Shown piece after piece: positions 23,788 to 41,800 of a DNA stretch of 64,000 nt. The notes under the pieces were generated by a model, which saw only the letters and a list, made by a program, of their open reading frames with translations, was not told the origin of the DNA and searched no databases. The DNA comes from Isoetes taiwanensis. Its lineage: Eukaryota; Streptophyta; Lycopodiopsida; Isoetales; Isoetaceae. Each line of letters begins with the position of its first letter. Positions within the stretch are counted from its first letter, which is position 1. A program made the position numbers and the translations under genes. The stretch is taken from the NCBI GenBank assembly GCA_021234155.1, contig JAJEKV010000011.1, positions 9,341,712 through 9,405,711 on the forward strand, read 5' to 3'.

Positions 23788-23860
23788 CTGTTTCAACCAA
23801 GCAAGGCGACACTTTTTAGAACATATTAATTAGACGAAAAGTAAGCCATAAATAAGCAAA

Positions 23861-24140
23861 AATGGCGCCATTTAGTACAATGGACAGAATTTTGGTCTAA
23901 ATTTGGAGCTAATGGCGCCATGGCAGTCATAGGTGTGAATTTGGAGCTAAATGGCGCCATGGCGCCATTTGATCCAAATGTTCACCGTTTCGACCAAATG
24001 GCGCCATGGCACCATTTAGCTCCAAATTTAGACCATTTCAACCTGCACCATTTTCAACCGAATGGCGTTATAGCGCCATTTAGACCAATACACCATTTTA
24101 AGGGTATTTGGAATAGAATGGCGCCCTGGCGCCATTTGAC
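23861..24140. repeat. ATGGCGCCAT palindrome cluster
   Basis: Six or more copies of ATGGCGCCAT-type palindromes occur, the clearest being a 22-bp perfect palindrome at 23949-23970 built from two overlapping copies. Flanking arms such as TTTGGAGCTAAAT and its reverse are also inverted, giving several possible larger hairpins. It lies upstream of the ParB-like gene. Confidence 0.8.
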
Positions 24141-25974
24141 CCAAGTGGGTGCCATTGGGCGATTTACATCCCTCAATCATCGTCTGGTCTGTCTACTTGT
24201 TTCAGTCAGAGTTATTGATGCCTCTGTTACTGATGCCTCTTTGTTGCAGCTATTTTACGTCCAGAAACACAATTTCAATCCGACCAGACTATCATGCTGA
24301 CAGATAGGAACTGGTGCATGGAAATAATGCGGGTGAGCCCCTCCACTGCTTCAGGCTCGAAAGGAGACTGCAGACGAGAGCTCTGCCTGCTGATAAAGGA
24401 GACGGCCACAGAATCAGCCGGAATTTACCAGCCGGGTATCTTGGTTAACATGAAGCTGGCTATCAAGAGCGGTCGCAAAGATTGGATCCGGGTGGTCTGT
24501 GAAGACACTATGCAGCAGAGAATAATAGTCTACTATGTGGACTGGAAGTTTTATGATCCCACAATAATGTCTGCTAGTATCGGAAATGTAGCTGGTTCGG
24601 CGAGAAAGCAAGGGTGGGCGCTGCCATCATACAACAGCTTTGAAGAAGCTGACATCAAAGGTTCACAAGAAATCTTGAGGGGTTTTATGATTCTTCGCAA
24701 TCGTTTGAACGAGTCGAAAAACTCGGCTTCATTCGTTGTCAAGGCATTAGCCCAGCAGAAACTACCCAGCCATTGTGGACACGGCCTGGCTGAAAACAGT
24801 TAGCAGGAAGAAGACAAGACCAACTAAGGAGGCAGCGGCAGCTGCAGCCGAAAAAGACTCCTCATCGGCTACTAAGGATGTCCAGGAAACTGAGCAAGGA
24901 AAGGCGGCGGACAAGGGGAAAGCCAAGAGAAAGGATCACGAAGATCCTGATAAGGAAAAGAAGGAAAGGAAAGAAAGGAAGGAAAAGAAAGAGAAGGAAA
25001 AGAAAGAAAAGGGAAGGGACGGGAAAGGGCAGAAGGAAGGAAAGGCGGGACAGGAAAAGGACGAAGAGGAAAGGGAACCACAGGAAATGGAAGGGAAAAA
25101 GAAGAAGAGGCACAGGCTAGAGACCTCTGAGAAGGAGAGGACACCTAAAAAACAAAGGAGACAGACTCGGACTCCCAGTCCTGCTGGAAGTCCAAGACGG
25201 AATGAGAGAAGCGACGAGCAGGCCAGAAGTGGTGGTGTTCCTCAAAGCCCATCACATATCCAAGATTCTGCGGGCACACCGGCCAAAAGGGTCACCATTC
25301 AGAAGCCAGAGCCAAAGAAGCTCACATTAAGAATAGCTCAGCACTTGCTCGAGGTTCCTGCAAATCTGAAGGTGGAAAGATCAGAAGAGGAGAAGACGGC
25401 AGAGAACACGTTACAGAAGATCATTGATCACCGCCATCTTTTTCCTCTGGGCATCACATTTATAAAACGAATAAATGTGTTCAGCTTATATCAAGGGCCT
25501 GCAAATCTGACATCTAGGCCAAGAAATATGGAGCACGTCAAGAACTTAGTGGAATCCTTAAAGAGACCCACATCCGATGTTCACTCCTGCGGACGTGATT
25601 CCATTCAATCCCCTCACAAAGAAACTACACCCTTGGAAAACTGAAGATGACCTCATGGGGATGCACTATTACATAGTGAATGGCAATCATTCTGTTATGG
25701 CCGCCAAATTTTGTATGTAAAAGTCTCAAAGACAAATAAGTCCCAAGAACAAATGGCAAAGATTTATGAGTATCGGAATTGTCGAAGTCTTGTCCGCACG
25801 GTGGACGAAAGCAAGAGTGCCCGCAGCCTCGCTTGTGAAGTCAATGATATCGCTGCCAAGACTATCTTCAAGGAGCCTTTCATTGATAAAATAACCCAAC
25901 TGCGGCAACAATATGCTCTTTGCGGGAAGCCTGATCCATCGGGACGCGGGCAATCTCGCTCAGAACCATACAAG

Positions 25975-26105
25975 GTACATGTTTTAATTTTCTGCTAGAT
26001 TAGCAAATGGCGCCACGGCGCCATTTGCTGACCAAATGGCGCCATGGCGCCATGGCGCCATTTCATAATCATTTGCATTCAATACTAACTTCTTGTTGTT
26101 TCCAG
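25975..26105 (+). other. Spliceosomal intron containing GGCGCC palindromes
   Basis: Donor AAG/GTACATG, acceptor TTTCCAG/CG and a perfect TACTAAC branch site (26083-26089) are all present, and the flanking reading frames join in phase 0. The middle holds four GGCGCC palindromes (26010-26065), the same motif as in the intergenic clusters. Confidence 0.75.
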
Positions 26106-26855
26106 CGTTATCTGGCTTTGGCTGAAGTTACCATGCGTGGTAAGCGCCCGAAAGATTTCAGCCAGTGGGTCTTCATGCCAGAGGATATTTTTCAGCTATT
26201 CATGTCCCTATGCAAGCTAAAAGATAATAAGGGACAGACCATTACCTGTAACTGGGCAAAAGAGTGTGACTACTTCAGTCAGACCTACCTGAGGTGCATG
26301 AGGGGTATGGACTATGAAGACTGTCGGATTTTGTTCCAGGAGGTGCTGGATGGAAAGACCTACATGAAGGTCACCACTGATTATACAGATAAGCACTTCT
26401 TCAAGACACGAGCAAAGACACTACGATCTATAACGTTCTTGAAGAGGGAGATTTTTGAATATGTGAAGGATAATTTTCCGAGGAAGTTTAAATCCTTCAC
26501 TGATCTCAGTACTGCCGTGGCGGGCTTCGAGGACAGCGACCTTATTTCCATGGCCACCTTGTATAGTAAGTGGGTTGAAGTTGGAGTGACCAAGGAAGGA
26601 TTTTTCGGTAACGTGCCACCTGCCTTGGCAAGATTTATACGCAATGCTGTCTTGCAGAGAGAGGATACTGAAGACTTCTGTTGCGAAGTTGAACTAACTG
26701 ACAGCAGGGGGCAAGTTGTTTGCACTCCTGTACCAGCATCCTTGATAGCCCTGGACACTAGAGGCATAACTCCAATGTGGGACAAAGCCACACTATCTAA
26801 TTTCTTTGATACAGCTGTAAAGAACACCACAGCTGATTCTTTCTGGATAGTGGTC

Positions 26856-26920
26856 TTTGCAAGGCCAGAGCATAACTTTTTGGCTTGCCAGGGGACGTGG
26901 TTATGCTCTGGCCTTGCAAA
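26856..26920. terminator. 65-nt stem-loop with 21-bp perfect arms
   Basis: TTTGCAAGGCCAGAGCATAA starts the left arm (26856-26876), and its complement ends at 26920, with a 23-nt loop. Part of the right arm is repeated directly at 26927-26950. Size and position (3-prime end of a gene) match the other hairpins of this region, but the arm sequence is different. It may act in transcript 3-prime end formation; that is inference. Confidence 0.5.
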
Positions 26921-27075
26921 AGACTTGGTTATGCTCTGCCCTTGCAAAAGACTTTCGAGTCCTTGCCTTTAATGGCAAATTTTTTGATATGCAAATCTAT
27001 GAATTTGGAAATTTTAACTAATTTTTCGATGTTATGTTTTTTTAGCTTCTTTATATGCACTGTTAGTGTTTTTAA

Positions 27076-27125
27076 TGGCGCCAATAAATGACACTTTAGA
27101 GGCATATTTTTTCTAAATGGCGCCA
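27076..27125. repeat. Two ATGGCGCC palindromes between convergent genes
   Basis: AATGGCGCCA at 27076 and AAATGGCGCCAT at 27115 lie in the short spacer between the 3-prime ends of the ParB-like gene and the H3-like gene. Confidence 0.7.
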
Positions 27126-27196
27126 TAATTGCTTACAAATTTGGCATAAAATGAACTAAAAAGGATTTTCGTTCCTAATTGGAATCACGAAATTTC

Positions 27197-27967
27197 TCAT
27201 TTTAATGAAATTGTGCTTTTTCTTAATGAATTTGCCAAGCGCATGTCCTTTGGCATGCATGTGACTCTTTTAGCATGTAGAGCACATGCCAAGGAATCTT
27301 CAAAGTGGTACAACCTTTTGCTAACTTCTTGCAAAGCGAGGAGTATCTCATCCGTTACCCACTTATTCTTGTCGAACTCGTGCAGGACTTCATGAGTCAA
27401 CCTCGCGAATGATGCTCGAGGTATTAGGAGACCGTAGCTGTTCTGAAAATGCCGGATCTCCCTTGCCGCTCGTGAGAAATGCGAGTCTGTGCTCCACTTC
27501 ATAGGTTTCTTTGGTGGCTGTGGTTTCTCTGGGGGAGGCTTCAGGGTGTTTTCTCTTGTTGGCCTCCCTCCTTCAATGTATGTGACCCTGTGCTTGTGGT
27601 AGTATTTTGAATATGTATCATACATTTTCATGTACGCCTTATAGTCCACTAATAACTGCTTGTAAGTCCTGTCCTTCTTCAGGGTGAAGGACTCTCGAGC
27701 AGGTCTGCCATATGTCTTGGGGTCTGACTTGGGCCAAACTAAGGATGGTGGAAAGCCGACAGGTTCTTCTGTATGTTTCTTCCATTCTGTTCCTCCTTGC
27801 TCTTGCCAGATAGGCAGCTTCCACGCATCATCTGATTCAGTGTCTGATGATAATGGGGGCTCATCTGGCTCCCTCTCAATGATCTGCACCCCTTTGATAA
27901 GTGTCCTCTTGGTTTTTCTTGCAACTTCCTTATCCGAGAGCAGGTCCTTGCCTTTCTTTGCCCTCTC
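27197..27967 (-). pseudogene. Histone H3-like protein 1, interrupted by the 10.8-kb transposon
   Basis: The C-terminal 90 residues are a histone H3 fold. They show REIRHFQNSYGLLIPRASF (alpha-N and alpha-1), then LLALQEVSKRL (alpha-2), FEDSLACALHAKRVT and PKDMRLANSLR (alpha-3), matching the H3 signatures FED-L-AIHAKRVT and MPKD. Loop 1 has H3 length, and alpha-2 is two residues short. In front lies a long non-histone tail (E/D- and P-rich, with PPPEKPQPPKKP) and no canonical H3 tail. No ATG opens the frame, because the transposon entered at 27968. The frame resumes beyond it at 38745-38853 in a Glu-rich stretch. Two TAG codons (38854, 38860) further upstream suggest decay or an exon edge. It could be a diverged CENH3-like or transposon-encoded histone. 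Confidence 0.8.
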
Positions 27968-27969
27968 AT
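27968..27969. repeat. AT target-site duplication, left copy
   Basis: AT precedes TAGGGCAG at 27970 and follows GCCCTA at 38742 (right copy 38743-38744). Choosing AT, rather than the alternative TA, rejoins the interrupted H3-like frame without a stop. Confidence 0.65.
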
Positions 27970-27993
27970 TAGGGCAGATTTGGGGTCTCAAAA
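27970..27993 (+). repeat. Left terminal inverted repeat
   Basis: It reads TAGGGCAGATTTGGGG inward and continues TCTCAAAA. 23 of 24 bases match the right repeat. Confidence 0.85.
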
Positions 27994-28353
27994 TGGCTCA
28001 TATCTTAGGTTAAAGATTTCCACGTCAGATTCACCACAACCAATCAGGTTTGCGCCTCTTTTACGAAAGTCAGTATTAGTTGGCAGGTAGAAGAATGAGC
28101 AGGCTTACTTGGCATCCACATGGCGTATTTTCATAGGGGATTCCTGCGCTTTTGTTGCAACCATATTAATGGCCCGTATTTTTCGAGAATCACTTCGCCG
28201 CCCAAAATAATGGTGATTTTGACCGCCTACTGTCAGCGTCACCAACTCGCTTGTCAAATTTTGGCGCCAAACTTCTGTACTGTCACCCCGGCTTTCACTC
28301 CTCATCTGCAATTCATGTCTCCTATAATTTCTGTGTTCTTGCCTCATTTACAG

Positions 28354-28677
28354 AACTCCCAAGGTGAAGAAGTGAGTGGTTTTGTCTCAATAGGTTCGTG
28401 GGTGAGTATGCTGCCATCAACGAGGGGCGAGCATAGAGTTAAGCGACAAAGGCAATCAGATGTGCGGACGCATTGGATAGGTAGGATAAAAGAGTTCAAG
28501 TTGAATTCTAGCGGCCGGAAAGTGGAAAGTATAATAATACGACATGCATATACCCCTTCTGATATGGCCAAAGAGCTAATCTCACCAAAAACAGCTTCCC
28601 AAAATTGCCCTCAAATGGTAACCACCTTAATCAGATCACACGACGCGAAGCTGTCTGTCAGCTATTTAAGTGCGTAG
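28354..28677 (+). pseudogene. Possible BAH-domain fragment
   Basis: An exon-like stretch begins after a good acceptor (CCTCATTTACAG, ending 28353); the frame is open from an ATG at 28120. Its translation has GSWVSMLPS, a basic loop, HWIGRIKEFKLNSSG and IIIRHAYTPSDMAKEL. This resembles the first half of a BAH domain (D-V-V-hydrophobic, then a WIGRI-type strand and a strand ending R-Y-P-D). The second half of the domain is missing. The frame then runs into hairpin 28633-28701, where it meets a stop, so the original end is probably lost. BAH domains bind nucleosomes, which would fit the H3-like neighbour. Tentative. Confidence 0.35.
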
Positions 28678-28701
28678 AAATAGTTTCGCGTCGTGTGATC
28701 T
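28633..28701. terminator. Constant-arm hairpin 1
   Basis: The arms AGATCACACGACGCGAA and TTTCGCGTCGTGTGATCT are perfect complements over about 17 bp around a unique loop. It lies between two plus-strand genes. Confidence 0.8.
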
Positions 28702-28777
28702 CCTTATCTTTTCATTTCTTTCGTTGACACATGTTTACAAACAAATTTATTGTGCAAGTTTATGTTTATCAGACGTC

Positions 28778-29617
28778 ATGGATATCGTTCCGGCCAAAAG
28801 CATTAGTAGTGTCCTTGTCGTGTATCACATAGACATCGGAATTGTCCTTTCCCCAGGTATGGATGCAGTGACCTTGCGGGCTATAGGCATCTAGTTTTAC
28901 GGACATGATTACAACGTAAAGGTCAGGAAACCGAGCTTGAGGCCGGTTGAATTGCCCCCTTTAAGTGAACTTTGTAAGCCACAGACTAATGAGAACAATG
29001 TAATTGCAATGAAGAAATGCCTGGCTGACGAGGTGCAAGCGGGAATGTCTAAAAACGGAGGCGTGAGGATGAGCTTCAAAATCTTCACACCGTTTGAGGT
29101 ATTTGCTAACATATTCCAGATGGCGCAGGAAGTTCGAAAAGCTCCGAAGACATATACATGCTTTTCCCCCCCTGTCGATTTTGTGGATGGCTTATTTTTT
29201 GTTCCAACCTGGGATGTTCGATTCCACGAATCATCCAGTCAACTAACAGAGTGCCGCATAGTTAAGTCCTCCTTTAAGTTCAGATACTTTCTTCCAAAAC
29301 AATATTTATACGTTAATTATCAACCAGAATGAAGGAAACAGAAAAAGAGAGGCGGCACAACTTTTTGGGAGCCGTTTGAGGACCATAGCAGACACTCTGA
29401 TGCGGTAGATATTCGAGTATGGCGAGGGGAGGAAGTCATTTATACATCCACCATGGAAATCGAATGGCCATTATCAGAGCTAAGAGTGCTAATGGAGACA
29501 GAGGAGATTGCTAACGACTTCCATTATTTCATTGATGGCAGTAGGGTTGGCTACAGGCAAGAGGGAAATGTAAAGTTTAGTGAGTTCGTGATCGACAAGA
29601 AATTGTCTATCGCCTAG
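28778..29617 (+). pseudogene. Unknown 279-codon gene with two in-frame stops
   Basis: From ATG 28778 to TAG 29615 one frame is maintained for 279 codons except for TAG at 28892 and TGA at 29330. Each differs by one C-to-T change from CAG or CGA. The protein sense is continuous on both sides: IFTPFEVFANIF before, RGGTTFWEPFEDHSRHSDAVD after the TGA, and a C-terminal FHYFIDGSRVGYRQEG. I recognise no domain. An alternative is that the first stop marks an unannotated intron, but no good splice sites frame it. No hairpin separates this gene from the downstream H3-like gene. Confidence 0.55.
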
Positions 29618-29802
29618 CGCTTTGAATCTCAGTTTTTTATTTGTATTTTTGTCCGATGTTCTTTTAGGGTTCTGTATTTTGTCCGATATTTTTTTAGGGT
29701 TTCGTACAATTATTTAAAAAAGTGACCATCATATTTTACTTTTAACTTCTGTTTTTTACTATTTATCTCTTGTCAGTTGTCTATTTTTGTCAGTGTTCGT
29801 AG

Positions 29803-29808
29803 TATAAA
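29803..29808 (+). promoter_or_regulatory. TATA box of H3-like gene 2
   Basis: TATAAA lies 151 nt before the ATG at 29954, in a 330-bp spacer that otherwise holds two TTTAGGGTT-type direct repeats (about 29668 and 29693). Confidence 0.4.
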
Positions 29809-29953
29809 GCGCCATCCCCTGAGAAGCCACGGCTAGAACTAAGCAAACCGCAAGGATCCATCCAGGTGGTGTAAGGCCAGGTGATTACATTAGTCCGCCT
29901 CCTTCATCCACATCTGAATCTTGAGTCTCTGATAGAGATTCTCCTCCTCGACC

Positions 29954-30649
29954 ATGCCTAACAGAAGCTGTGGAAAAGAACTCCGCATGACAGACGGTGG
30001 GAGAAGCAGCTCGGCAGTAAGTAGGGAGGTGCACTCCGGTTCGGAGACGGAGGATGAAAATGTGAGAGATCGCCGAGCAGAATATGACGCCGGATTAATT
30101 ATTGGGCAGCCGCCTCTTCTTGCTCTTCCTGCTCCTCCTGTGGATGTGCCAGGACCTTCAAATCAAAGGAGGAGGCCCAACGCCAGAAAGGGGAAGGCGA
30201 CCAGAAATGTGAGGAGACGGCCGGAAGAGTCGGCCGAGCAACAGCCTGTAAATGCTGAGGTGGGTGAGGGTAGTGGCCGGAAGCGAAAGTCTAAGCCTGA
30301 CATTAAAGCGCTTCGCGAGATTAAGAAGTATCAGAAGAGCACTAAGATGGTCATTCCGCGGCTCCCATTTGGGAGACTCGTGAAAGAGATTCTGCAAGAG
30401 TGTGGTGCGATACATCATACCAGTTACGGAATTCAAGAAACTACTTTAAATGCTCTTCAAATGGCTTCGGAAGCAGTTGGTGTCGGTCTATTCGAGGACT
30501 CGCAGCTTGCAGCAATACATGCCAAGCGGGTGACTGTCATGCATAAGGACATGCGCCTGGTCTTACGCATAAGGGATCCTGAGTACTATGGTCAAAATTT
30601 TATGGCTGAATACAACAAGAAGAAAGACCCCACAGAAAAAAGGCCGTGA
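29954..30649 (+). CDS. Histone H3-like protein 2, intact, transposon-borne
   Basis: An intact 231-aa ORF. Residues about 123-215 form a complete H3 fold: REIKKYQKSTKMVIPRLPFG (alpha-N and alpha-1), LNALQMASEAVGVGLFED (alpha-2), then SQLAAIHAKRVTVMHKDMRL and RIRD (alpha-3). Loop 1 is about four residues longer than in canonical H3, a direction shared with CENP-A, which also has a longer loop 1. The 120-aa N-tail is unrelated to H3 tails and is rich in Arg, Pro, Ser and Glu, with GRKRKSKPD just before the fold. The protein could form a variant nucleosome on element or host chromatin, or mimic CENH3. Role is inference; the fold assignment is strong. A hairpin starts 135 nt after the stop. Confidence 0.88.
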   Translation: MPNRSCGKELRMTDGGRSSSAVSREVHSGSETEDENVRDRRAEYDAGLIIGQPPLLALPAPPVDVPGPSNQRRRPNARKGKATRNVRRRPEESAEQQPVNAEVGEGSGRKRKSKPDIKALREIKKYQKSTKMVIPRLPFGRLVKEILQECGAIHHTSYGIQETTLNALQMASEAVGVGLFEDSQLAAIHAKRVTVMHKDMRLVLRIRDPEYYGQNFMAEYNKKKDPTEKRP

Positions 30650-30784
30650 AGTGCCTTTGTGTTTTTTTCATATGTATAATATTCTTTAATGTAATGGCTT
30701 TCCTTATAAGCTTCATCTCTTAGTTCATTTCTTTCTTAGAAGCCTAGGTTCGCACTTTGTATTTTTTTTTAAGGTTATACGTGA

Positions 30785-30854
30785 GGATCACACGACGCAC
30801 AACAAGCATTGTGTTTTTTTTTTCGCACATACTAGTTTTCGCGTCGTGTGATCC
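30785..30854. terminator. Constant-arm hairpin 2
   Basis: The arms GGATCACACGACGC and GCGTCGTGTGATCC are perfectly complementary. The loop is T-rich and unlike the others. It begins 135 nt after the H3-like stop codon. Confidence 0.8.
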
Positions 30855-30995
30855 AACCCTAACCCTAAAATGTACGGACAAATCTCCCCACAACGGCTGT
30901 GTCCCCTTTCATAATCAACAATGGCTACTTGAGTTCAGAAGTGACAGCGCCTTACCGCTCCTAAACATCTACTTGCATTCGTCGTCTGCTTCGCC

Positions 30996-32360
30996 ATGGA
31001 TTGTTATGTGAAGTTCCTGGAATGGTATACATCTGCCCCACATGACAACGAGGAAGTTGCGCCGACTGCGATTTATCTGTTCTATTGTAAGGAGTTGGAC
31101 ATCATGGAAAACAGTGGCGAGCTTGGATGCTATCGCTTTAGCTTTCAGCCGGACCGCTTGGGCTCATCGGACGTCCTTTGCAGATGTTCATGGGTCATGG
31201 ATTCCAAAACCAGCTCTAGAGGAAGCGGCTTCCCATTTGCAAGCAGCGAAGACGTTTTTCAAGAATGCTACACAGTGGGCTCCTCCTGGCTGCGTCCTTG
31301 TACTTAAGAAGGTAACTTATATCTCTTTGCCATTTGCATTCGCTAGTTATTGCATTCTGCTCGGCCAAACCGAAGATACACTGGAAACAATGAAATCTTT
31401 AAGCCAAGGGGGGTCAGTTATGTGTGATGATGCTGGCTATGACGTAGAAATGGAGATAGATCTATAAGAAGAAGAGCAAGAATGTAGGAGTTTTGGCATC
31501 GACGCACTAGCCTTGGGTGAACCAGAGGAGGAAGATAATTCTGAAGGTGATGAGGATGAGGATGAGGATGAAAAGAAGTTGTCTGACATAATGCCAATTT
31601 TAGTGGAAGGCAAAGAATACTTATTGCTAAGTGATATAGTGAGGAACCCGTCTTTGTTACGAATGTGTGCTGGTGAAGACGAGCTTATCAGTACCTTGGC
31701 CGAATGGGTAAATCTAGGCCTAGATTTGGTAGAGGACTTGGACAAAGAGATGTTTGAAGTGTCTTCTTATACCGGCAATGCTATAAAGCTTAAAGAAGCC
31801 TATGAGAGGCTGGTCAAGAGGAGGCGAATCTGCCAACGGAAGAAGAATTCCAGCGTCTCCGTGCAAAATTGCCAACAGGATCTACAGGTTTGGCAGGCCC
31901 TTCAGTCAATCGCGGCAGCATAAGCCTCGTGGATAAGGAGAAATGTGAAGAAGATAACCTTGAGGGGTCTTATTTGTGGGAAGTAGATGTTTTTTCTTGC
32001 CGACATGCACGCGAGGGACAGGAAAGATTGAAGGACTCGACATTGTTACGATATATCTCAAGATTCGTTAATGGAGAGATAATCGTCTTCAGCAGAACTT
32101 TCAGTCCAAAAGGTGCAGAGTTTGTCTATTACATCCATGCATTATGCATGTTCGGGAACCATTCCCAATTGGCATCAAACACTGAAAGGGTGATAGCAAT
32201 TCGGCGGGATGTTGTGTTACAATATTTTGACGACCAAGCCGGCCTGCGGGCGAGCAATATGTTAAATTTTTTAGCTGTTGGCTTGAATCACCCAAGGTTG
32301 GAAGCTAGGGTCGATAACATGGGAGTCATTGCCTTGTTGGATCAGTACGGCAGGGATTGA
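30996..32360 (+). pseudogene. Unknown frameshifted gene with acidic middle
   Basis: It starts at ATG 30996 (MDCYVKFLEWYTSAPHDNEE), shifts frame near 31110, meets TAA at 31465 (one C-to-T change from CAA), and shifts again near 31810 to end at 32360. About 450 residues can be traced. The middle has an acidic run (EEEDNSEGDEDEDEDEKK) followed by LPTEEEFQRLRAKLPTG. The C-terminal part has FVNGEIIVFSRTFSPKGAEF and FDDQAGLRASNMLNFLAVGL. A possible donor (AAGAAG/GTAACT) at 31310 means some of this may be intronic. No recognised domain; a chromatin or capsid-like role would be guesswork. Confidence 0.45.
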
Positions 32361-32489
32361 AAGAGCATGAAATTGACGACGAAGCTTGAAAAATTGGAAG
32401 TTATATAGTTTTGAACTTGTATCAGTAAATACTTATGTATGGATTGTATCACCGAAATTATTAATAAAAATTATTTTATTTGTATTTAT

Positions 32490-32551
32490 TCACACCACGC
32501 GAAATACATCAGTCTGATTTTCTGACGAACACGAGCTTTCGCGTCGTGTGA
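32490..32551. terminator. Constant-arm hairpin 3
   Basis: The arms TCACACCACGCGAAA and TTTCGCGTCGTGTGA have one mismatch. It starts 129 nt after the stop at 32360. Confidence 0.75.
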
Positions 32552-32609
32552 TATTTCTCTGGAAGAAATGAATTGTTATTGAAAAAAAAACAGTTAATTT
32601 ATTTATTCC

Positions 32610-32670
32610 TCACACGACGGAGAAGCAACGGTCCATTTTCCAGACCAACGGCATCCTTCGCGTCGTGTGA
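32610..32670. terminator. Constant-arm hairpin 4
   Basis: The arms TCACACGACGGAGAAG and CTTCGCGTCGTGTGA are imperfect near the loop. It ends 24 nt before the TATA box of coiled-coil gene 1. Confidence 0.7.
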
Positions 32671-32694
32671 CTCAAGCTACTACAAAATCTATCT

Positions 32695-32700
32695 TATAAA
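32695..32700 (+). promoter_or_regulatory. TATA box of coiled-coil gene 1
   Basis: TATAAATAG lies 96 nt before ATG 32791. The same spacing recurs in the two paralogues. Confidence 0.65.
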
Positions 32701-32790
32701 TAGAAGACCTTTTATCTTGCCTTCGACCTCCGATCCTCTTCCGCCTTCTGCTCATCTTCCACTTCTGCCTTCTGCATTCTCATCACTCCG

Positions 32791-33190
32791 ATGGCATCTT
32801 CATCTTCCTCTAGCAAGCGACCACGCCAAGATAGCACTCCCCCGCACCAAGAGCTCCCCATGGACATCACCCTTGCAGTGGTGATGAAGAGATTCAAAGA
32901 GATCCACAATCAAAACAACCGACTTGTCGCCGAAAATATTGACGCGGTCGACAGAATTAGCCTTCACAAGGGCGCTCCTGCATGAGCGAGACATTGAGCT
33001 CGCCGAAACATTCGCCATGTACCAAGAGGCGACTAGCTGCAGGGCTGAGGCAGTTGAAACTGCCCACAATATTTCGCAGGCCTTAGAAGAAATGGAGAAG
33101 AAGCTCCGAGCTGCAGAGGATGAGAACACAGCTTTAAGGCTTCAGCTAGAGGATCAGGAAGATCAGCTAGAGGATCATGAAAATCCCTAG
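32791..33190 (+). pseudogene. Coiled-coil paralogue 1, one frameshift
   Basis: The N-terminus MASSSSSSKRPRQD precedes ELPMDITLAVVMKRFKEIHN. A 1-nt shift near 32945 moves to a second frame that continues HERDIELAETFAMYQEAT, then a heptad-rich Glu/Leu coiled coil (QALEEMEKKLRAAEDENTAL) to the stop at 33188. Total about 132 aa. The SSS-KRPR start and LP-DI-L-V-KR helix are shared with paralogue 3, so the two derive from one gene. Role unknown; short coiled coils could oligomerise or bind the H3-like protein (guess). Confidence 0.6.
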
Positions 33191-33303
33191 TCGTTCTATC
33201 TATGTATTTTTTGCTTCAATGAGAAGTTTTTGATGATATATATATTATTGTTTTCGATGATATATTTATTCTCTTGTTCAAATGTATGTTTTGTTTTATT
33301 AAA

Positions 33304-33370
33304 AGATCACACGACGCGAAATGCCATGCTTGCAATTAGGTAGCAATCAATGGATTTCGCATCGTATGAT
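33304..33370. terminator. Constant-arm hairpin 5
   Basis: The arms AGATCACACGACGCGAAAT and ATTTCGCATCGTATGAT carry two C-to-T-type changes on the right. It begins 113 nt after the stop of coiled-coil gene 1. Confidence 0.75.
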
Positions 33371-33678
33371 TTCCATAATGTACACCTCGTTGTATGTACA
33401 AATTCCTGATTTATTAATAGAAAACTATCTGTAACACAAACATCTAGCTAGATTATGTGATATCTTGCAGGTAAATGTGAATTAGTCATATCTAGGTTTG
33501 GCAAGCGCTAGCACTCAAAGCACGTGGCATGTGGATGACAACGTCTACTCACATACGTGGCATGCGGATGACAACGTCATGCCAAGGACGTGGCATGCGC
33601 TGCCACAATAACATCGTCTTTTGTACGACCAAAGGATTGATTAGATGGGTCTGCATACCGTACGGCTAGAATCTGACG

Positions 33679-33743
33679 GATCCCATGATGCCAACATAGG
33701 CTACCGTTGCCTAATTGCATGCTATAATTTCGCCTCGTAGGAT
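33679..33743. terminator. Constant-arm hairpin 6, decayed
   Basis: GATCCCATGATGCCAA and TTTCGCCTCGTAGGAT are recognisable but mutated arms at the usual distance. It lies 60 nt before the TATA box of coiled-coil gene 2. Confidence 0.5.
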
Positions 33744-33802
33744 TATTACACATACTTTATCGGTACTCGCAACCGTAGATTCCAACGTATTTGTAGTTTC
33801 TA

Positions 33803-33808
33803 TATAAA
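33803..33808 (+). promoter_or_regulatory. TATA box of coiled-coil gene 2
   Basis: TATATAAA context; the core lies 96 nt before ATG 33899. The in-frame ATG at 33809 would fall inside the promoter and is rejected as the start. Confidence 0.65.
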
Positions 33809-33898
33809 ATGTCAGACGCCATTGTCTTCTCCTATCTGCCATCTCCTGTTCTACCACATCCATCCTCAGCCATCTCCCCTTCGTTCTCATCTCTTTCA

Positions 33899-34319
33899 AT
33901 GGCCTCCAGCTCCAATTCCATCTCTGTCGAGATCTTGTCTCAAGTTCTGATGAAGGAAATTAAGAACATTCGTGATGAATCTGAGGAACAGATCCGCCTT
34001 CTAAAAGAAAAGAATGATGAAGACGTCGCCAAGCTGGTTGCGGCAGAGGGCCGCCTTCTATAGGGAGGTGCGCGACAATCAGTGGGCTGCCATAGACAGC
34101 GAATTGCGCGCCATGAGATCTAACCTCCAAGAGAGGCTTAAGGCCGCAATTGAAGCGGGCGAGGCTGCCCGAGCTCAACTCGATGAGCGGGATGATAAGG
34201 TTGCAGAGTATGAGAACGTGGTTGCGGGGCAGGCAATCATGTTGGAGGAGCATAAAAAAATTATCAGTGCCCTCCAGAAAGAGCTTGCCCGGCGATCAGA
34301 GGCATCGGGCTCCTCCTAG
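33899..34319 (+). pseudogene. Coiled-coil paralogue 2, one frameshift
   Basis: It begins MASSSNSISVEILSQVLMKE and shifts frame by 1 nt near 34045. It continues REVRDNQWAAIDSELRAM and a long Ala/Glu/Leu coiled coil (EAGEAARAQLDERDDKVAE), ending SEASGSS at 34319. About 139 aa. The Ser-rich start, the length, the promoter spacing and the 3-prime hairpin match its two neighbours. The sequence between has diverged, so only architecture and the first helix support common origin. Confidence 0.55.
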
Positions 34320-34448
34320 AGGGGCCCGTCTTTTTTTAATGTTTGTAATTATTTTGTTTCGCAATGGAAAACGTTTTTGAAAAATGTGCCGAATATTAAG
34401 TTTCCTATTTTTAATTTTCAATATCCGTGGTAGAGAGAATGACAAGAC

Positions 34449-34514
34449 AGATCACACGAAGTGAAACCCTTCATAAGCTTTTAAAGCGCGTGTGCAGATC
34501 TCGCGTGGTGTGAT
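34449..34514. terminator. Constant-arm hairpin 7
   Basis: The arms AGATCACACGAAGTGAAA and TCTCGCGTGGTGTGAT are partly mismatched. It begins 129 nt after the stop of coiled-coil gene 2. Confidence 0.65.
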
Positions 34515-34651
34515 ACAGTGTACTTAGAATAGTTAATGTGTTCCAAACGGACGGTACCATTAATGTGTTCTAGCGGACCGGCGAGAATGTAATTTCGACA
34601 CGCGCGGCAAAGCTGTTTTAATCGTATTTATTATGTTCAAGCGCTAATATG

Positions 34652-34657
34652 TATAAA
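34652..34657 (+). promoter_or_regulatory. TATA box of coiled-coil gene 3
   Basis: TATAAATT lies 95 nt before ATG 34747. Confidence 0.65.
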
Positions 34658-34746
34658 TTGAGGTCCTTGCATTGTGCTCCTTCTGCCGGTTAGAGTCTTC
34701 GCTCCCTTCACTTCTATAATCTTAACGTCCCTTCCATTTGTCATCT

Positions 34747-35223
34747 ATGGCCTCCACATCCTCTACCGCTGATAAGGGAAAACGCCCGAGGATAGAACTT
34801 CCTTCTGACATAGTGTTGGGTGTTCTACTGAAGAGGTTGAAGGAGCAAGACGATCTTCTAAAGAGGAATGCCGTTACAATTCAGCAGAAAGAAGAAGAAA
34901 ATGAATTCAACCTTCTCATGCTTCGTAGCCAGGAGAGGCATATCAGGCAGTTGAACAGAAGGCTGAACAGGAGGGAAAGGTTATGCCCCAACAACTGCAC
35001 TGAGGTGGTTATGACAGCAACGAGGTTGCTAATTCAGGCAGAAGAAAACGTTGTGGTAGTGGGACAGGAGCGGGACATGTACAAAGAGATGGTGGACAGA
35101 TTGGAGAAACGTTTGGATAGGGTGATTGCTGGCTTGAGGAGAAGAGACAAAGACGAAGACGAGGACGAAGCTGATGATGATGATGAAGATAATGAAGAAG
35201 AGCTCGCACTAGAGCAACAATGA
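34747..35223 (+). CDS. Coiled-coil paralogue 3, intact, 158 aa
   Basis: The only undamaged member of the tandem trio. It begins MASTSSTADKGKRPRIE and continues LPSDIVLGVLLKRLKEQDD, which aligns with LPMDITLAVVMKRFKE of paralogue 1. A predicted coiled coil follows (about residues 35-75), then a Cys-containing turn (RLCPNNCTE), a second helix with a leucine heptad (DMYKEMVDRLEKRLDRVI) and a strongly acidic end (DKDEDEDEADDDDEDNEE). The acidic tail recalls histone chaperones, which commonly use such tails, so a chaperone for the element's H3-like protein is possible but unproven. A hairpin begins 82 nt after the stop. Confidence 0.7.
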   Translation: MASTSSTADKGKRPRIELPSDIVLGVLLKRLKEQDDLLKRNAVTIQQKEEENEFNLLMLRSQERHIRQLNRRLNRRERLCPNNCTEVVMTATRLLIQAEENVVVVGQERDMYKEMVDRLEKRLDRVIAGLRRRDKDEDEDEADDDDEDNEEELALEQQ

Positions 35224-35305
35224 GTCGTTGTATTTTGTTTTTCAATGTAACAATTTTCACAACTTTAATCAAAAGTAACATTTTTTTATTATTATCTTGT
35301 AAAGC

Positions 35306-35369
35306 ATCACACGACGCGAAGCCACATAAATGCAAGCAATAGCGAACTTCACTGTTCGCGCCGTATGAT
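35306..35369. terminator. Constant-arm hairpin 8
   Basis: The arms ATCACACGACGCGAAG and TTCGCGCCGTATGAT. It belongs to the plus-strand coiled-coil gene 3. Confidence 0.75.
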
Positions 35370-35377
35370 CCAAATAA

Positions 35378-35442
35378 GATCACACGACGCGAAGCTACAG
35401 TTGTGCAAACGAGCTTGGAGGCAAGTACTCCGCGTCGTGTGA
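35378..35442. terminator. Constant-arm hairpin 9
   Basis: The arms GATCACACGACGCGAAG and CTCCGCGTCGTGTGA. It lies 12 nt beyond the stop of the minus-strand transposase-like gene, so two convergent genes have two hairpins. Confidence 0.8.
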
Positions 35443-35454
35443 ACATACTACACA

Positions 35455-38078
35455 TTACAAGTATACTTTACCGATTTTTAGTCTCTTAGATCTCCACTGT
35501 TGCGATGCTAGTGGGGCCCTAGAATATTGCCAAGCAAGTTTCCGTTTTCTCTTTAGCATTATGCCAATGGTGTTTATGACTTCTGGGTTGCTCCTTAAAG
35601 CGACCTTCTTGTCGTATTTAGCCATTGCCCTTCTATAAAATCACTCTGTCATCTGTCTTAGAGGGTTGGTTCCCACATTTCCACCCCCTCTTTGAGTGTT
35701 ACAATAAAAGGCTATTTTAGCTCATTTATGCGACTTCTCCATGCCTTGTGCACTCCACACTGCTAGGCTTCCATACTTCCTAAAACACCAAGGTGCATGA
35801 GCCCAAAAGATGTGCAAGTAGTGCGTGACTTCACTTTCTCCCCATGCGTCTATGTAAGCCCTAATAAATTTGTTATTCGCTTGCACAAACATTTCTGCAT
35901 CTTCTCTTGTGAGGTCCATTCTCTGAATGTATGGGAACAATTCAGACAATGAATCCCATGCTTTTTTTTTTCTCAATGCCGACCGAACGCCATCTGTGCG
36001 GTCCTGCTCCGCATCAACCAGCAATTTTCCATATTCATAGACCTTTTCTCCCATCTGGTTTCTGTTCAGAGCCTCTCTATGATTCTTTATGAAGCGTCGA
36101 GCTTTCACCCCTCCAATTGGCACCTTATGAGGCACACTTGTTCATCCTGCCCGTTTCTCATCGAGCTCTAATGTTACATTGCCACCATGCAAACCTGCTT
36201 CTGATAGAACATGTTCAACTCTACGAATTCCTTCCTCTCTTCTCTTCTTGTCTGAAATGTTTCACACGAATCTGCAGCTCAAAAATAACATCTTGTCGAT
36301 GATTCTCACAAAGCCGTGCAAAGTGCAGATATGAACCCTCTCTAATGGAATGGGAAAAATGCCATGGAACTTGGGATCCTTTTCTCCTCTATTAGGAGCA
36401 TTTGCTTGGTTAAAGGACAAGGTTGAAACAGTCTTCCCAGTACTTGACTTCCTTGCATGATTGCAGTACAGACAAGTTTTGCATGTTCCTTGTCCTCCTC
36501 CACTTATGTTGTACATTGCTTTCTCAGTTTTTAAATCAGACGCCAAGTGAAAAATTACTTTGTAAGATCCATAATGATCTACTTGCAATTTTTCCCCTCC
36601 CTCGAATCTAGATATTAGACTCAGGATGTCAGTTTGATTGAAAACCCATTTCAATACCTCGTGGGTTTCTTTCTGAACTTTAAAGAGACCTAACCACCAG
36701 GTGTCATCTTCAGATTGACATGAGAACCATTTTTCGGCATGCTTCTTCTCCTCGTCCATCACCTCTACATCTTTTTTATTATTCTTGTTGCTCTTTGATT
36801 TAGCATGTGCAATTGCATTCTCAATTGCTCTATTCATGATGACAACGGATACCCTCTCATACTTCTCAAACTTGGTCAGTTCTATTTCATCCAATTTTAT
36901 GCAAACTTCAATCTCACCATTAGTTTCTGCAACTGTTAAGTCATAATATTTGACAAGGAATTGTAAGAGACTAACCAGGCCAGCCCAAAGATTATTGCGT
37001 TCATTCATTCCAACTATATCACAACAATCCTTGCCATTCTTATCTTTTATGGCTATGGCAGGACCGACACATTCAACATAGTGCATCTCTCCTCATCTTT
37101 GTCCTAGTAACCCTTGTATTCTCAACAATTTATGGACGTGGAGCGAATATTTTTTTTGTGCCCATTCTTTTCAACGCGTCGTGGAATGGCTTGAATAGAG
37201 AACGGTAACCAAGCCTACTGATGCCTACATCGTCACAAACAGTCTGTACTTCTGTCGCTTCTAGCTTCTTATAGATCTCTCCTAGTACCATTTCCAATAC
37301 CATCTTCTTGAGAGAAGAGTTGTAGGGCTGACAAATCATGTCCACTATCTCCCTGTTTGTCGCTACGTAACCAAGATTGCTCCTAGTTTTCCCAGATCTT
37401 GATTGGCCTTTGCTAGTGTTGTAAACGGACCTTGTGGCCGTGACCCTACGTCTGAATGCACCTGATCCAAACTTCAGTTCCTCTATCGGTCGAAAGTGAT
37501 TCTTCCTTTCTCGCAAACCAAGGGGTGTTTTCTTCAAATTCTTTAACCTACATTGAAACCCAAAGTTTGCTCTTTCGAGCTCTCGGATCTTTTCTTGCAG
37601 CTGCCCTATCACCAATTTGGACTTGTCCACTTCATATCTCAAAGAGGTTTCCCTCCCGAAGCTGTCATTCCTTTCCTTCATTACAGTGGAGTAATGAAGC
37701 GAGAGAAAAAAGAGCTGCTGGTTTAAGTTATAACTCTCTTGTGACAATCGGAAGCAGCTCATCTCAAGGAACTGTATTCGATTTCGAATGCCTTCATCCT
37801 CTCTCAATCTCTCACAATATCCCAGGAGGCCAGAGTTACCGTCACCACAAAAATCGGACTAAACTTGAAACGTCCCGAAATGACGGTTTCTTGCCACTCA
37901 ACGGATCCAATGGATATAAATTGCCATTCGCCCAGATGTCGACATTTTTTGAGCCTGCAAGACGCAATACGTCGAGGTCTAAGTTCTTATTTTTTAGACC
38001 TCGTTTTTTGCGATTGAAGACTGGAGCATATTTGTGATTCAGTTGGATCCTTATCCACACATCATTTGGAGCTTCCAT
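35455..38078 (-). pseudogene. Transposase-like gene, decayed, about 870 codons
   Basis: From ATG 38078 the frame shifts near 37830, stops at TAA 37130, shifts near 37095, then stays in one frame to TAA 35455 except for TGA at 36259, 36136, 35722 and 35641. Every in-frame stop is one C-to-T or G-to-A change from a sense codon. An N-terminal coiled coil (about 37807-37550) precedes VQTVCDDVGISRLGYRSLF. A CKTCLYCNHARKSS Cys cluster follows, then the motifs IFPIPLERVHICTLHGFVRI and HYLHIFWAHAPWCFRKYGSL with GMEKSHK. This layout (VG-SR-GY helix, Cys pair, LH-F, H-IWAH and QG-E-SHK) recalls uncharacterised transposase-like proteins of plants and invertebrates. It is probably the element's own transposase. 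Confidence 0.6.
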
Positions 38079-38085
38079 ACTGCGT

Positions 38086-38150
38086 GGATCGCACGACGCG
38101 AAAATAAGGTGTACAATTTGTATGCCTCAGCCCAATTCGCTTCATGTGAG
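38086..38150. terminator. Constant-arm hairpin 10
   Basis: The arms GGATCGCACGACGCGAAA and AATTCGCTTCATGTGAGCC. It lies 8 nt upstream of the transposase-like ATG, the only copy at a gene start with no visible upstream gene ending there. Confidence 0.65.
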
Positions 38151-38718
38151 CCGAACTTCCGTACTAGCCTTGTTTTTGAAATTTGCAACGTGCATATGGA
38201 AATCGAAAAGTCCATTCTCCTACAATCCATGCTTTTATACATTAAGCAAATTCAAATTTTGAATTGTAGGGGGCAGGAATCCTGTATGGGGATGAAGTAA
38301 AGATCCTGGTTTACGAACTTTAAGGCGCAGTTGGAGCGCCTCGAAATAAAAGTCTGATACAAAGCTTCAACCTACATATTCAAATTTTGAAATGTAGAAG
38401 GCGGGAAGCTTGTATGGGCATGGCCTCTAAATGAAAATAGCGCAAGACAAGAATCGGTGACATGCACGCTTGGTATCTGACAAACCAAGAGACACCGTCA
38501 TGTGTTGCCGGTATGCTATAATGCAAGTGGTTTTTTAGAAGCGCCACATGTTGCATCAGTCTGTCTGACAACCAACAGAACTAAATACATATGGCGCCAT
38601 GGATGTGCGATCCCCCTTATTCTGGGAGAATATTCCAAGTAAATCTGTAATTATGAGAGTTTGGTATCCTAGGTGGCATGGGGAAAAAAGAGCGAAAATA
38701 TGACGTGGAATGGCTCTG
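38151..38718. other. Right subterminal region of the 10.8-kb transposon
   Basis: No gene is supported. It holds two diverged copies of a segment with CAAATTTTGAATTGTAG (38250) and CAAATTTTGAAATGTAG (38381), one ATGGCGCCAT palindrome (38591) and TGACGTGGAATGG next to the inverted repeat. Confidence 0.5.
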
Positions 38719-38742
38719 TTTTGAGACCCCAAATCCGCCCTA
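38719..38742 (-). repeat. Right terminal inverted repeat
   Basis: On the minus strand it reads TAGGGCGGATTTGGGG, then TCTCAAAA. It has one mismatch to the left repeat. Confidence 0.85.
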
Positions 38743-38744
38743 AT
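38743..38744. repeat. AT target-site duplication, right copy
   Basis: Pairs with 27968-27969. Confidence 0.65.
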
Positions 38745-38853
38745 GATTGTGCAAATTCATCTCTCGGTCATCCTTCATTTCTTCTCTTCTCTCTTCCTCC
38801 TCCTCTATGTGCTCCTCCTCCTCCTGCATCTCAAAGTTCTGTTCTTGATCTTC
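38745..38853 (-). pseudogene. Displaced N-terminal segment of histone H3-like protein 1
   Basis: 36 codons open on the minus strand, ending at the AT duplication. They encode a Glu-rich stretch (contains EEEEHIEEEEERREEM) followed by DDREMNLHN, and join in frame with codon 27967 of H3-like gene 1 when the transposon and one AT are removed. Two TAG codons (38854-38856, 38860-38862) close the frame upstream; both could be CAG changed by C-to-T, since Gln and Glu codons continue beyond them (EDLQDLAHEQENH). Confidence 0.55.
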
Positions 38854-38869
38854 CTATTCCTAGTGGTTT

Positions 38870-41800
38870 TCTTGCTCGTGGGCAAGATCTTGTAGGTCTT
38901 CGTTTATTAAATCCTAACCAAAGCTCAGACTCATGGGGATCGACTGACGGCTTAGGTCTCCAGAAGACAATGCAAACAGAATTCATGGCAAATAGATTGG
39001 GCTGGCATAAGAACATGGCCGTTGGATAGTCCACTCCATCCACCCCTCCTGTGCATATTTTGCAGATAGGCTGAAAAGTATTGGGGTTGTGACCGTAGTC
39101 TGCCAGGTGCATAGTCAGAGGGACTACTCCTGGATTGCATCTCCCCAGTCCCGATGAGGCAGGAGGGAATCACTCCACTCCAGAAGATCCATGCCAACTA
39201 CAGGTGAGCCAGAGAGCCATTGCTCGTCTACGACTTGAACCCCACTGAGGCGACGCATCACCTAGGAGGTGTCAAGCCCATACCTTGCCCACACTCATTG
39301 CCAAACTATCAGGCCTAGTCCACAATGTTTCCCAGCCATCGTTACGCACCAGATGGATCAACTATAGCCGGACAAGTCTTCCTTATCATCCGGTCTAACC
39401 CCGCCACCCACAGCTAGGCGGGCTCCTATGCACAGGCCGCATTTACTGGGTGATAAGGAGGTTACTCTAGGAGCATCACTACAAAGGCTCTAGTCTCTAC
39501 CTCCCTTCCCAATACACAAGAAGTGCGCACAGAGAGAAACCATCATCATTCAATGAACCTGAAAATACAGAATAACTTTTAATCTATCTGCCAAACATAC
39601 AAAGTTAGGTTCGTTTGTTAGAGGCTGATATCTGGGGATCTAAAAGACTGCTAAAGCTAAGAAAAGATGCAAACTCAGCTCAATGCTGGTCGCGAAGTTG
39701 GCATTGACGTCAGACCGATCACATACCAGATCCTTGGCTAGCTCCCAGTCCTCAGACGACATCCATGCTATCGGGGTGGTTCGAAATGGTCAAAACTTGG
39801 TGATCTTCTTGGGAAAGCAAGCTCCACAGGTGCTGGCAGGTCGAAATAAATATATCGCAGGTGCAATGCGAGCTCTTGAGGCTGGAATCTGAAAGGGACA
39901 CTTTTAGGATTCCAGACTCCTTTTATCATGACGCTTTTAGGGTTGGCATCTAAAGGGTCATTTAGGGTTATTGCCACGTGGCAAGGGTTATAGGCACATG
40001 TTAATGGTTCCAATGGTTATGTTTCAGGGTATAACTCCATACGATTGCCGTGTACATGTCGCCATGTGCCAGTGACATGGCAATATTAGATACGTATTCA
40101 CATCGTACATTGTGCTGGAACATCACATACATACTCTAAGGAAAAGCAAAAAGAAAATTTAGAAAAACAAAAACCTGTTTTCCTTTCTGCCAAGATGCAA
40201 GAGCAAAGCTTTCTCTTCCCTTTCCATTGTTCCTTCAAATTCCTTTGCAGAGAAGAATACGTAAAAATAAGAGTAGTATTATACATTACTTCGTTTTGTG
40301 TACTTGAATGATTCAATTACATCAGCTCAAGAAGATAGAAAAGGGTACCTGGACAGTTAATGTGGCAAGAGAAGGAGAGCAATCCTTACTGAACTCAAGC
40401 ATGGAACAGGATTAATGAATATTTGTACTTACAGAATTAAATTTTCGAGTTCCGAGCCTCATATAACTACATATCTATTCAAACATTTGGGGCTATTACA
40501 ACATTGATCTAGAACTATAGGTATATGCTATGGATCTCCCAAGGACTAAACAATGAAGGGAATGAAAGTGTATTAGAGGTTAAGTATTCTTATAAGCAAG
40601 CGCTATAATATAGTGATGGATGGTTAGTAGAGATGAAGAATTCTATATTGACTTCATAGTGGAGATCATAACATATCGGAATAGCTCATGGATGATGCCG
40701 CCTTTACAGACTCCAAAATGAAGCTTTTACTGAGAACATTCCAATGTTCCTACTTATCTTACAAGAAGTCCTATGTGATCGTTATTCCACCACATCTTAC
40801 GTATTGGATAATTTGTGCCATTAGACATTTTAACCTTGCAAACTATCATGGGATTTTATCATGGCGGGTGAATAAGGTAATATTCATATGGTGACCTTGA
40901 TTTCCCCCAGTGGCAAATACGGTAAAACATCCTCCCCTTTAGCATATGCCATGTAGATTTTCCAAAGAGCTATTTTTGGAGAATGTTTGATGTGAGGTCC
41001 TATAGAGAGAAACTGTGCTTTATAACATGCAAAATCATATATTATAGTATGTTTCATAACCTTTTGATCTCCAAGTACTTCCAGAATTATACCATCACAA
41101 ATTCGTTTTAGATGACTACTTCTACAATTCCATCATCTAGCACCTGCTAATGGCGCACTTCTGTTTCTTACGTAAGGTTTGTTAATTGCATCTTGATAGA
41201 TACTTGTTGGGGATTATTGCATAAGTAGTTGCAGAGTTGTCAGATCATTATCTGGCAGTTAGTTGTCTTTGCCAGATCATTATCTGCAGATTCTCGCATT
41301 AATTCGCATACGGGTAGAGAGCATTATCTACAAAGACAGGTTTGTTCTATTTTAGTGTGCTTGATATTACGAGGCTTTCCAATGCTAGGGTCCATTCTAT
41401 ATCATATGTGTAATTGAAGGATATTACAAGTGCAAGATACCCCATTTTAGGATTACTATTGGGGTATACTGTGAGGTGCAGTTACTTTAGATAGATTCTA
41501 AACATTAGTACAAAAATTGAACCCAAAAATAGCCATGGCACAATATGGAAGAAAGTTCATGTATGTGACCTTGCCACTGAAACACAAAGATTCAATTACA
41601 TAAAACAATATATTAGTATGAAGCAATATTTGGCATAATAAATACAAATAGACAATGTTGTTTTGCTCCCAGGTCCACATGATGTTTTTGAGCTAGCCAG
41701 ACTTCTAGTTACAAGGTTGGTTCGAAGCTACCTAACAAGATGAACAAATGTATGGGCATTGTAGGAAGATGTTTGTTTGTACTTAGGATGGGCGCTCGTG

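Follow-up and report, generated by a model that had tools for sequence, protein, structure and literature searches.

The window analyzed here is a stretch of 64,000 nucleotides from Isoetes taiwanensis (contig JAJEKV010000011.1, positions 9,341,712 to 9,405,711 of the forward strand). It contains a complete copy of a DNA transposon (positions 27967–38745; 10,779 bp), the ends of which match those of other copies in the genome. Six plus-strand genes, counted by hand and including a gene for a histone H3 variant, face a single minus-strand gene, the presumed transposase. The initial annotation had described seven plus-strand genes facing a transposase-like gene; the opposed layout holds, with one gene fewer. 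Hundreds of genomic ends and the repeated linkage of the H3 gene to the transposase strongly support a cargo-carrying terminal inverted repeat (TIR) transposon that has an H3 gene of its own. The element in the window is a decayed member of a large I. taiwanensis DNA transposon family.

Ends and copies of the element

The element is bounded by TIRs of 27 bp, located at 27967–27993 (plus strand) and 38719–38745 (minus strand), the right one carrying one mismatch to the left. The ends and the single mismatch agree with the initial annotation, which had given the repeats a length of 24 bp. Further inward, the subterminal repeat TTCCACGTCAGATT, read in the sequence, lies at 28018–28031 (plus strand), and its inverted counterpart at the right end occupies 38697–38710 (minus strand). 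The assembly searched for other copies comprises 1,658,258,908 bp in 1110 contigs; the published genome is given as 1658.30 Mb in 204 scaffolds and 909 contigs, with an N50 of 17.40 Mb (PMC8566536). The exact 27-bp end occurs 406 times in forward and 409 times in reverse orientation, and the reversed control sequence is found in neither. A genome query with the left 101 bases returned 543 first-look candidates. The 40 that were scored show a 92–96% match (100% for the window itself), and 37 of them, including the window's own, reach the C of CATTAG. Ten other copies, each inspected over 16 kb, all start with CATTAG and have unrelated flanks; copy c8, for example, reads CATTAGAG. The longest match, copy c1 (L009 and L010), agrees with the window at 90–93% over most of the element, lacks about 270 bp (35927–36197) and the last 13 bp, and stops inside the right end.

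Convergent pairs of exact ends are present 23 times among the first 100 places listed, with spacings of 0.1–0.6 kb (5 pairs), 3.9–4.6 kb (12 pairs), and 6.5–26.8 kb (6 pairs). The end sequences of 22 of the 23 pairs were read, the 26.8-kb pair on C458 being left out. All 22 end with CATTAGGG and CCCTAATG, as the search pattern demands, and their flanks look unrelated to one another. The recurrence of these inverted ends at numerous unrelated positions is as expected of a TIR DNA transposon (class II), and the 22 pairs provide the further copies sharing both ends on which the initial annotation had made its interpretation depend. Most exact end pairs are shorter derivatives of the element. The shortest ones examined (L101–L105, about 0.1–0.6 kb) have the same 27-bp ends and no half-site pairs, a feature described below, inside them. 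The distribution of ends is not wholly favorable to a family of cargo-bearing copies: no right end is recognizable within about 15.9 kb in the ten other long copies, a single one of the 23 pairs (C778:347838–359466, 11.6 kb) encloses a listed H3 place, and none encloses a listed transposase place.

The histone H3 variant

The H3 variant gene is located at 29829–30649 (plus strand), and it is close to certain that the family codes for an H3 variant. The family protein is 273–276 residues long and consists of a tail beginning with MARTKQTARIHPGGV, a long Ser/Pro/acid linker, and an H3 fold. In the window, the start codon has been lost and both a stop and a frame change damage the first 125 bp or so of the gene; the fold is open from 29954. 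The open reading frame (ORF) at 29954–30649, i.e., the open 3' part of the gene, matches the Pfam family Histone (PF00125) with an E value of 4e-29, and the H3 of copy L053 does so with an E value of 1.4e-33, which identifies the H3 histone fold by sequence. The H3-fold cargo protein that the initial annotation described as intact is real as a gene with many copies, but in the window the gene is incomplete at its 5' end.

The H3 gene or a part of it is present in 24 copies among that of the window and 30 others (10 long copies and 20 short stretches). The frame upstream of the fold encodes ARTKQTAR or a close variant in all 24, with a stop inside it in two. A genome search for the gene gave at least 219 matches, with 150 scored of 7640 candidates. 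Complete frames of 273–276 residues exist at four loci (L036, L052, L053, and L058), and long frames with changes to the C-terminus or the fold at three others (L050, L023, and L066). Decay is nevertheless extensive and counts against the anti-silencing role proposed below, L036 being the only one of the 24 H3 stretches with a complete frame. Beside this family, part of an H3 gene closer to the canonical form lies at about 6391–6498 of copy c8 (L023 and L024), a few kb from a damaged element copy.

The tail was aligned for 36 copies, 35 of them readable, after L034 (a short fragment) and 7 of the 20 loci L049–L068 (duplicates) had been set aside. In the long copies, it starts with MARTKQTAR-I-HPGG-V, so that the H3 tail is retained over its first eight residues. 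Lys4 and Arg8 are found in all 35 readable copies. The position of canonical Lys9 is occupied by Ile in 33 copies and by Thr in 2, and that of Lys14 by Val in 31 and by Ile in 4. The residues beside Ile9 are also replaced (S10H and T11P). A linker rich in Ser, Pro, acidic residues, and Arg connects residue 17 or so with the fold near residue 160 and is far longer than the remaining H3 tail.

The variant thus resembles canonical H3 in the ARTKQTAR start, the Gly-Gly pair at positions 12 and 13, and the HAKRVT and MPKD motifs, and the fold shares 58 of 90 residues (64%) with that of canonical H3.2. It differs from canonical H3 in the replacement of Lys9 by Ile and of Lys14 by Val or Ile, in the Ser/Pro/acid linker that takes the place of the remaining tail, in a loop 1 that is four residues longer, and in a C-terminal extension. 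A longer loop 1 is a hallmark of CENP-A/CenH3, and the window ORF alone ranks S. pombe cnp1 first (93.8 versus 91.4 bits). The family profile, however, reverses this ranking, with 115.2 bits for canonical H3.2 and 108.9 bits for cnp1, and its best matches in the Protein Data Bank (PDB) are canonical H3; the protein is not closer to CENP-A, and identification as a CenH3 was rejected. Moreover, the variant keeps ARTKQTAR, which CenH3 tails are not known to carry. Structure predictions gave low confidence (mean pLDDT of 42.3 for the H3 variant and 29.5 for the transposase) and lend the proposed folds no help.

Selection on the H3 gene was assessed from the distribution of changes among copies. 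For non-CpG variants restricted to a single copy, the ratio of nonsynonymous and stop changes to synonymous changes is 298:96, close to the value of about 2.83 expected under neutrality. It falls to 138:56 for variants shared by two or three copies and to 48:32 for those in four or more, the latter differing from the single-copy variants with p = 0.0056. When changes were assigned to branches by a FastTree tree and parsimony, the ratio was 645:236 on terminal and 142:81 on internal branches (p = 0.006), with 33 stops on the former and 2 on the latter. Purifying selection on the older branches is real but modest. Its weakness, at about 0.6 of neutral, tells against the anti-silencing role proposed below, as does the dN/dS ratio, which ranges from 0.39 to 0.84 among the four complete copies and has a median of 0.58 among 30 lesioned ones; because the values are similar, the complete copies do not stand out.

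Plant transposons capture gene fragments, and the H3 gene could be a passenger of this kind, i.e., a host H3 gene captured once and copied without function. The stops and frame changes in most of the copies read, the neutral appearance of terminal changes, the similar dN/dS of lesioned and complete copies, and the absence of a listed H3 place from most exact end pairs would all agree with such an origin. A passenger would not, on the other hand, be expected to show a complete frame at four loci, constrained older changes, Lys4 and Arg8 in every readable copy, and recurrence beside the transposase. We consider this explanation quite improbable.

Presumed transposase, insertion site, and gene borders

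The presumed transposase gene spans 35458–38078 (minus strand) and was joined by eye from the frames 37845–38078, 37133–37858, 36265–37092, 35725–36141, and 35458–35640. When the genome was searched with a transposase exon, 140 of 2809 candidates were scored and at least 145 matches obtained, in which open frames reach 669 residues. Linkage was counted over 131 H3 and 140 transposase places among the matches listed, second pieces of one copy being excluded. At 32 of the 131 H3 places, a transposase lies 4.6–13 kb downstream on the opposite strand, where chance gives 0.08; any other arrangement of the two within 13 kb occurs at 2 H3 places. Neither the 561-residue frame of copy L108 nor the 478-residue frame of c1 gave a match, the former in Pfam at the cut-off and the latter in the PDB. 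The next 130 residues of L108 contain a weak match to RAG1 over about 40 residues around the catalytic glutamate (E of 0.017 in Pfam and 0.024 in the PDB). All 15 PDB matches at E values of up to 10 are to RAG1 (0.024–0.2) and cover the same residues. In the window, the frame at 35725–36141 resembles a stretch of RAG1.

From the linkage to H3 and the weakly RAG1-like stretch, we infer that the repeated minus-strand gene is the transposase of the element, and its distant similarity to RAG1 suggests that it is probably of the DDE type. The resemblance lies below every cut-off, which weakens this assignment, and the likeness to RAG1 may reflect a distant kinship that falls below proof. Members of the Transib/RAG superfamily have CAC-type ends and a 5-bp target duplication. 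In contrast, the ends of the Isoetes element are CATTAGGG, no 5-bp duplication is seen in the 22 pairs, and the alignment with RAG1, though recurring in 15 of 15 PDB matches, has E values of only 0.024–0.2.

The element lies inserted in another H3-like gene, distinct from its own, on the minus strand, which it thereby interrupts. The main part of this gene is at 27197–27966 (PF00125, E of 2.2e-15), and its detached acidic N-terminal part is at 38746–38856, in a frame that is open over the joined flanks. The protein has a long acidic N-terminal tail and shares 42% identity with the element H3 over 90 residues. When the flanks are joined via CATG, 40 open residues precede the shared KKGKDLL and lead into the acidic N-terminus on the far side, compared with 2 for a joint without duplication and 9 for a TA-type joint. 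The flanks in the window (left ...CTCT, right ATTG...) do not match each other. Outside CATTAG...CTAATG, no duplication is found in 20 of the 22 further pairs and a match over 2–4 bp in the other 2, the terminal C being fixed by the pattern used to find the pairs. Either nothing was duplicated, or AT was duplicated inside a CATG target. The latter is favored, though not proven, because the CATG joint keeps the frame of the interrupted gene open. A model with an outermost 37-nt inverted repeat and a TTC duplication restores the frame as well, but the other copies begin at CATTAG and the model with longer ends was therefore dropped.

Around the surrounding H3-like gene set, a search for inverted ends gave a single, unconvincing 13-base match (20500–23000 versus 38743–43500). 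Next to the interrupted gene, the stretch at 23853–27135 shows a second, distinct set of gene-border repeats, in which neighboring frames (22842–23726 on the minus strand and 24294–26969 on the plus strand) are bordered by the repeated palindromes ATGGCGCCAT, some of them within an apparent intron. A perfect 21-bp inverted repeat, TTTGCAAGGCCAGAGCATAAC, together with a further near-copy, is located at 26856–26948, at the end of the frame 26007–26972.

An element inside an H3-like gene raises the question of whether its own H3 variant acts in transposition, by tethering the transposase complex to nucleosomes or by steering it to certain chromatin. The recurrent linkage of the two genes (32 of 131 H3 places), the longer loop 1, and the top match of the window ORF to cnp1 could be read in this way. 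Nevertheless, one insertion site makes no targeting pattern and the flanks of the 22 pairs look unrelated; the preference of the family profile for canonical H3 over cnp1 also argues against it, and the retention of ARTKQTAR with the loss of Lys9 and Lys14 is more in keeping with a role in tail marks. A role in transposition is, in our judgment, rather unlikely.

The genes of the element are bordered by pairs of inverted half-sites, ATCACACGACGCGAA and TTCGCGTCGTGTGAT, accepted with up to four mismatches. The ten pairs span 63–66 bp and all lie within the element, only single weak half-sites occurring outside: 28635–28699 (span of 65), 30787–30852 (66), 32489–32552 (64), 32609–32671 (63), 33306–33370 (65), 33680–33743 (64, a weak pair), 34451–34514 (64), 35306–35369 (64), 35379–35443 (65), and 38088–38150 (63). 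None is within a gene span, for which ten random positions give p of about 3e-5 (spans set by hand). Pairs follow the stop codons of H3 and genes 2, 3, 4, and 5 by 83–138 bp and the presumed end of the transposase by 15 bp, and the tenth pair precedes the presumed transposase start by 10 bp. Copy c1 contains ten pairs, ordered as in the window, and copy c2 contains twelve; over the window and the ten copies, a span of 63–68 bp is seen in 41 of 43 pairs. Within c1, similarity is 79% among the arms and 49% among the loops, a value equal to that of shuffled loops. Since the half-sites and their spacing recur and the loop sequence does not, the arrangement fits a protein bound at two spaced candidate sites or a transcriptional border element. 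Some features sit poorly with a maintained binding array: no pair separates gene 1 from the H3 gene, the decayed or interrupted copies c3–c10 have 0–3 pairs each, and between the window and c1 the arms (279/300) and loops (328/350) are equally conserved.

It is possible, if somewhat short of an even chance, that the pairs mark transcription ends or insulate neighboring genes from one another and are unrelated to the histone. Their position shortly past the stops of five plus-strand genes and the transposase end, and never inside genes, is what such elements would show. Unrelated loops between similar arms at a fixed span also fit a protein on two spaced sites, and transcription ends would leave unaccounted for both the missing pair after gene 1 and the pair just upstream of the transposase start. 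This explanation is compatible with the silencing-resistant histone discussed below.

The other plus-strand genes are less informative. Gene 1 (28895–29617) consists of pieces of a decayed frame without a Pfam match at the cut-off. Gene 2 (30996–32360, span determined by eye) probably has one intron, with a donor near 31312 as judged by eye, and encodes a strongly acidic internal stretch that is longer in copy c1; neither gene belongs to a family recognizable in the Pfam scans. Genes 3 (32791–33190), 4 (33899–34319), and 5 (34747–35223) appear coiled-coil-like by eye. The product of gene 5 ends in an acidic C-terminal tail and matches that of gene 3 over 20 residues (E of 0.002). Genes 3 and 4 change frame at similar positions in the window, and a programmed +1 frameshift was considered; gene 3 is open there in c1 and gene 4 in c2, and the frame changes are therefore decay. 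The initial annotation had noted a resemblance to a BAH domain in one cargo gene, for which the scanned frames give no Pfam support, and a histone-chaperone-like acidic tail in another; acidic stretches exist, but the chaperone reading finds no support, no chaperone domain reaching the cut-off. Rfam gave no match in the window.

Histones and intergenic hairpins occur in some large viruses, and several unrelated genes bordered by inverted repeats, together with a histone gene, recall the remnant of an integrated DNA virus. However, the ORFs of the element contain no viral hallmark gene in the Pfam scans, and no viral-contig relatives of the transposase exon, the H3 gene, or the ends were confirmed. 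The 27-bp inverted ends at hundreds of places, their presence in short derivatives, and the RAG1-like stretch in the transposase further argue for a transposon, which makes a viral origin highly improbable.

Elsewhere in the window, a DUF7869 protein (E of 8.3e-37), which we take to be probably derived from another transposon, is encoded at 4999–5661 (minus strand), and a G+C-rich stretch of diverged internal repeats extends over 14600–21640.

A possible anti-silencing role of the variant

Cargo-bearing plant DNA transposons are already known. No description of a transposon-encoded histone was met in the open-access literature, a scope that leaves aside preprints and most subscription journals, and this is weak evidence of absence. 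The word histone does not appear in the main text of the genome papers on I. taiwanensis (PMC8566536) and I. sinensis.

In our best explanation, the H3 variant is kept as a long-standing gene of a transposon family moved by a transposase distantly similar to RAG1. The variant protein would enter nucleosomes, and these could take methylation at Lys4 and not the silencing mark at Lys9. Silencing might thereby be delayed, and the DNA of the element would stay expressible long enough to transpose. The ten half-site pairs of fixed span are the best candidates for binding by an element protein that focuses the effect. Taken as a whole, we regard this silencing-resistant histone as having about an even chance of being correct, with the anti-silencing step as its weakest part. 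The suggestion of the initial annotation that the element may control its own chromatin gains weight from the tail, in which Lys4 is kept and Lys9 and Lys14 are gone in the 35 readable copies. A caution comes from the same tail, as S10H and T11P beside Ile9 could abolish recognition by Lys9 enzymes.

A close parallel is the VANDAL/VANC system of Arabidopsis, in which a plant DNA transposon likewise carries a gene in addition to its transposase and has repeated noncoding sites. VANC is not known to be a histone. The Isoetes element also differs in that its transposase frames show no MULE match in the Pfam scans and in that its anti-silencing activity is a proposal. VANC proteins are described as binding the noncoding repeats of their own transposons, inducing the loss of silent marks, and thus acting against silencing through these repeated sequences (PMC10398659). 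A second parallel is offered by the K-to-M and K-to-I oncohistones, in which a methylated tail lysine is likewise replaced by a non-polar residue. They are point mutants of full H3, whereas the Isoetes variant also differs at positions 10 and 11. H3K9M is reported to block Lys9 methylation dominantly in fission yeast (PMC5030085), and K27I to have a smaller effect than K27M (PMC6562757). With VANC and H3K9M as precedents, as far as these reports describe them, the anti-silencing model appears reasonable. A stronger version, in which a natural K9-to-I histone is placed on or near the element via the half-site pairs, cannot be silenced at Lys9, and in addition ties up the host Lys9 methyltransferase, would have the transposon overcome heterochromatin by means of its own nucleosome and is in our view unlikely.

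Transposons are already known to encode anti-silencing proteins. No DNA transposon that encodes a core histone variant, here with the silencing lysine replaced and the activating lysine kept throughout the 35 readable copies, was met in the open-access literature searched. If the variant enters nucleosomes, the family would provide a natural test of whether a parasite directly changes the histone code of its host, as well as a new place to seek the origin of odd plant H3 variants.

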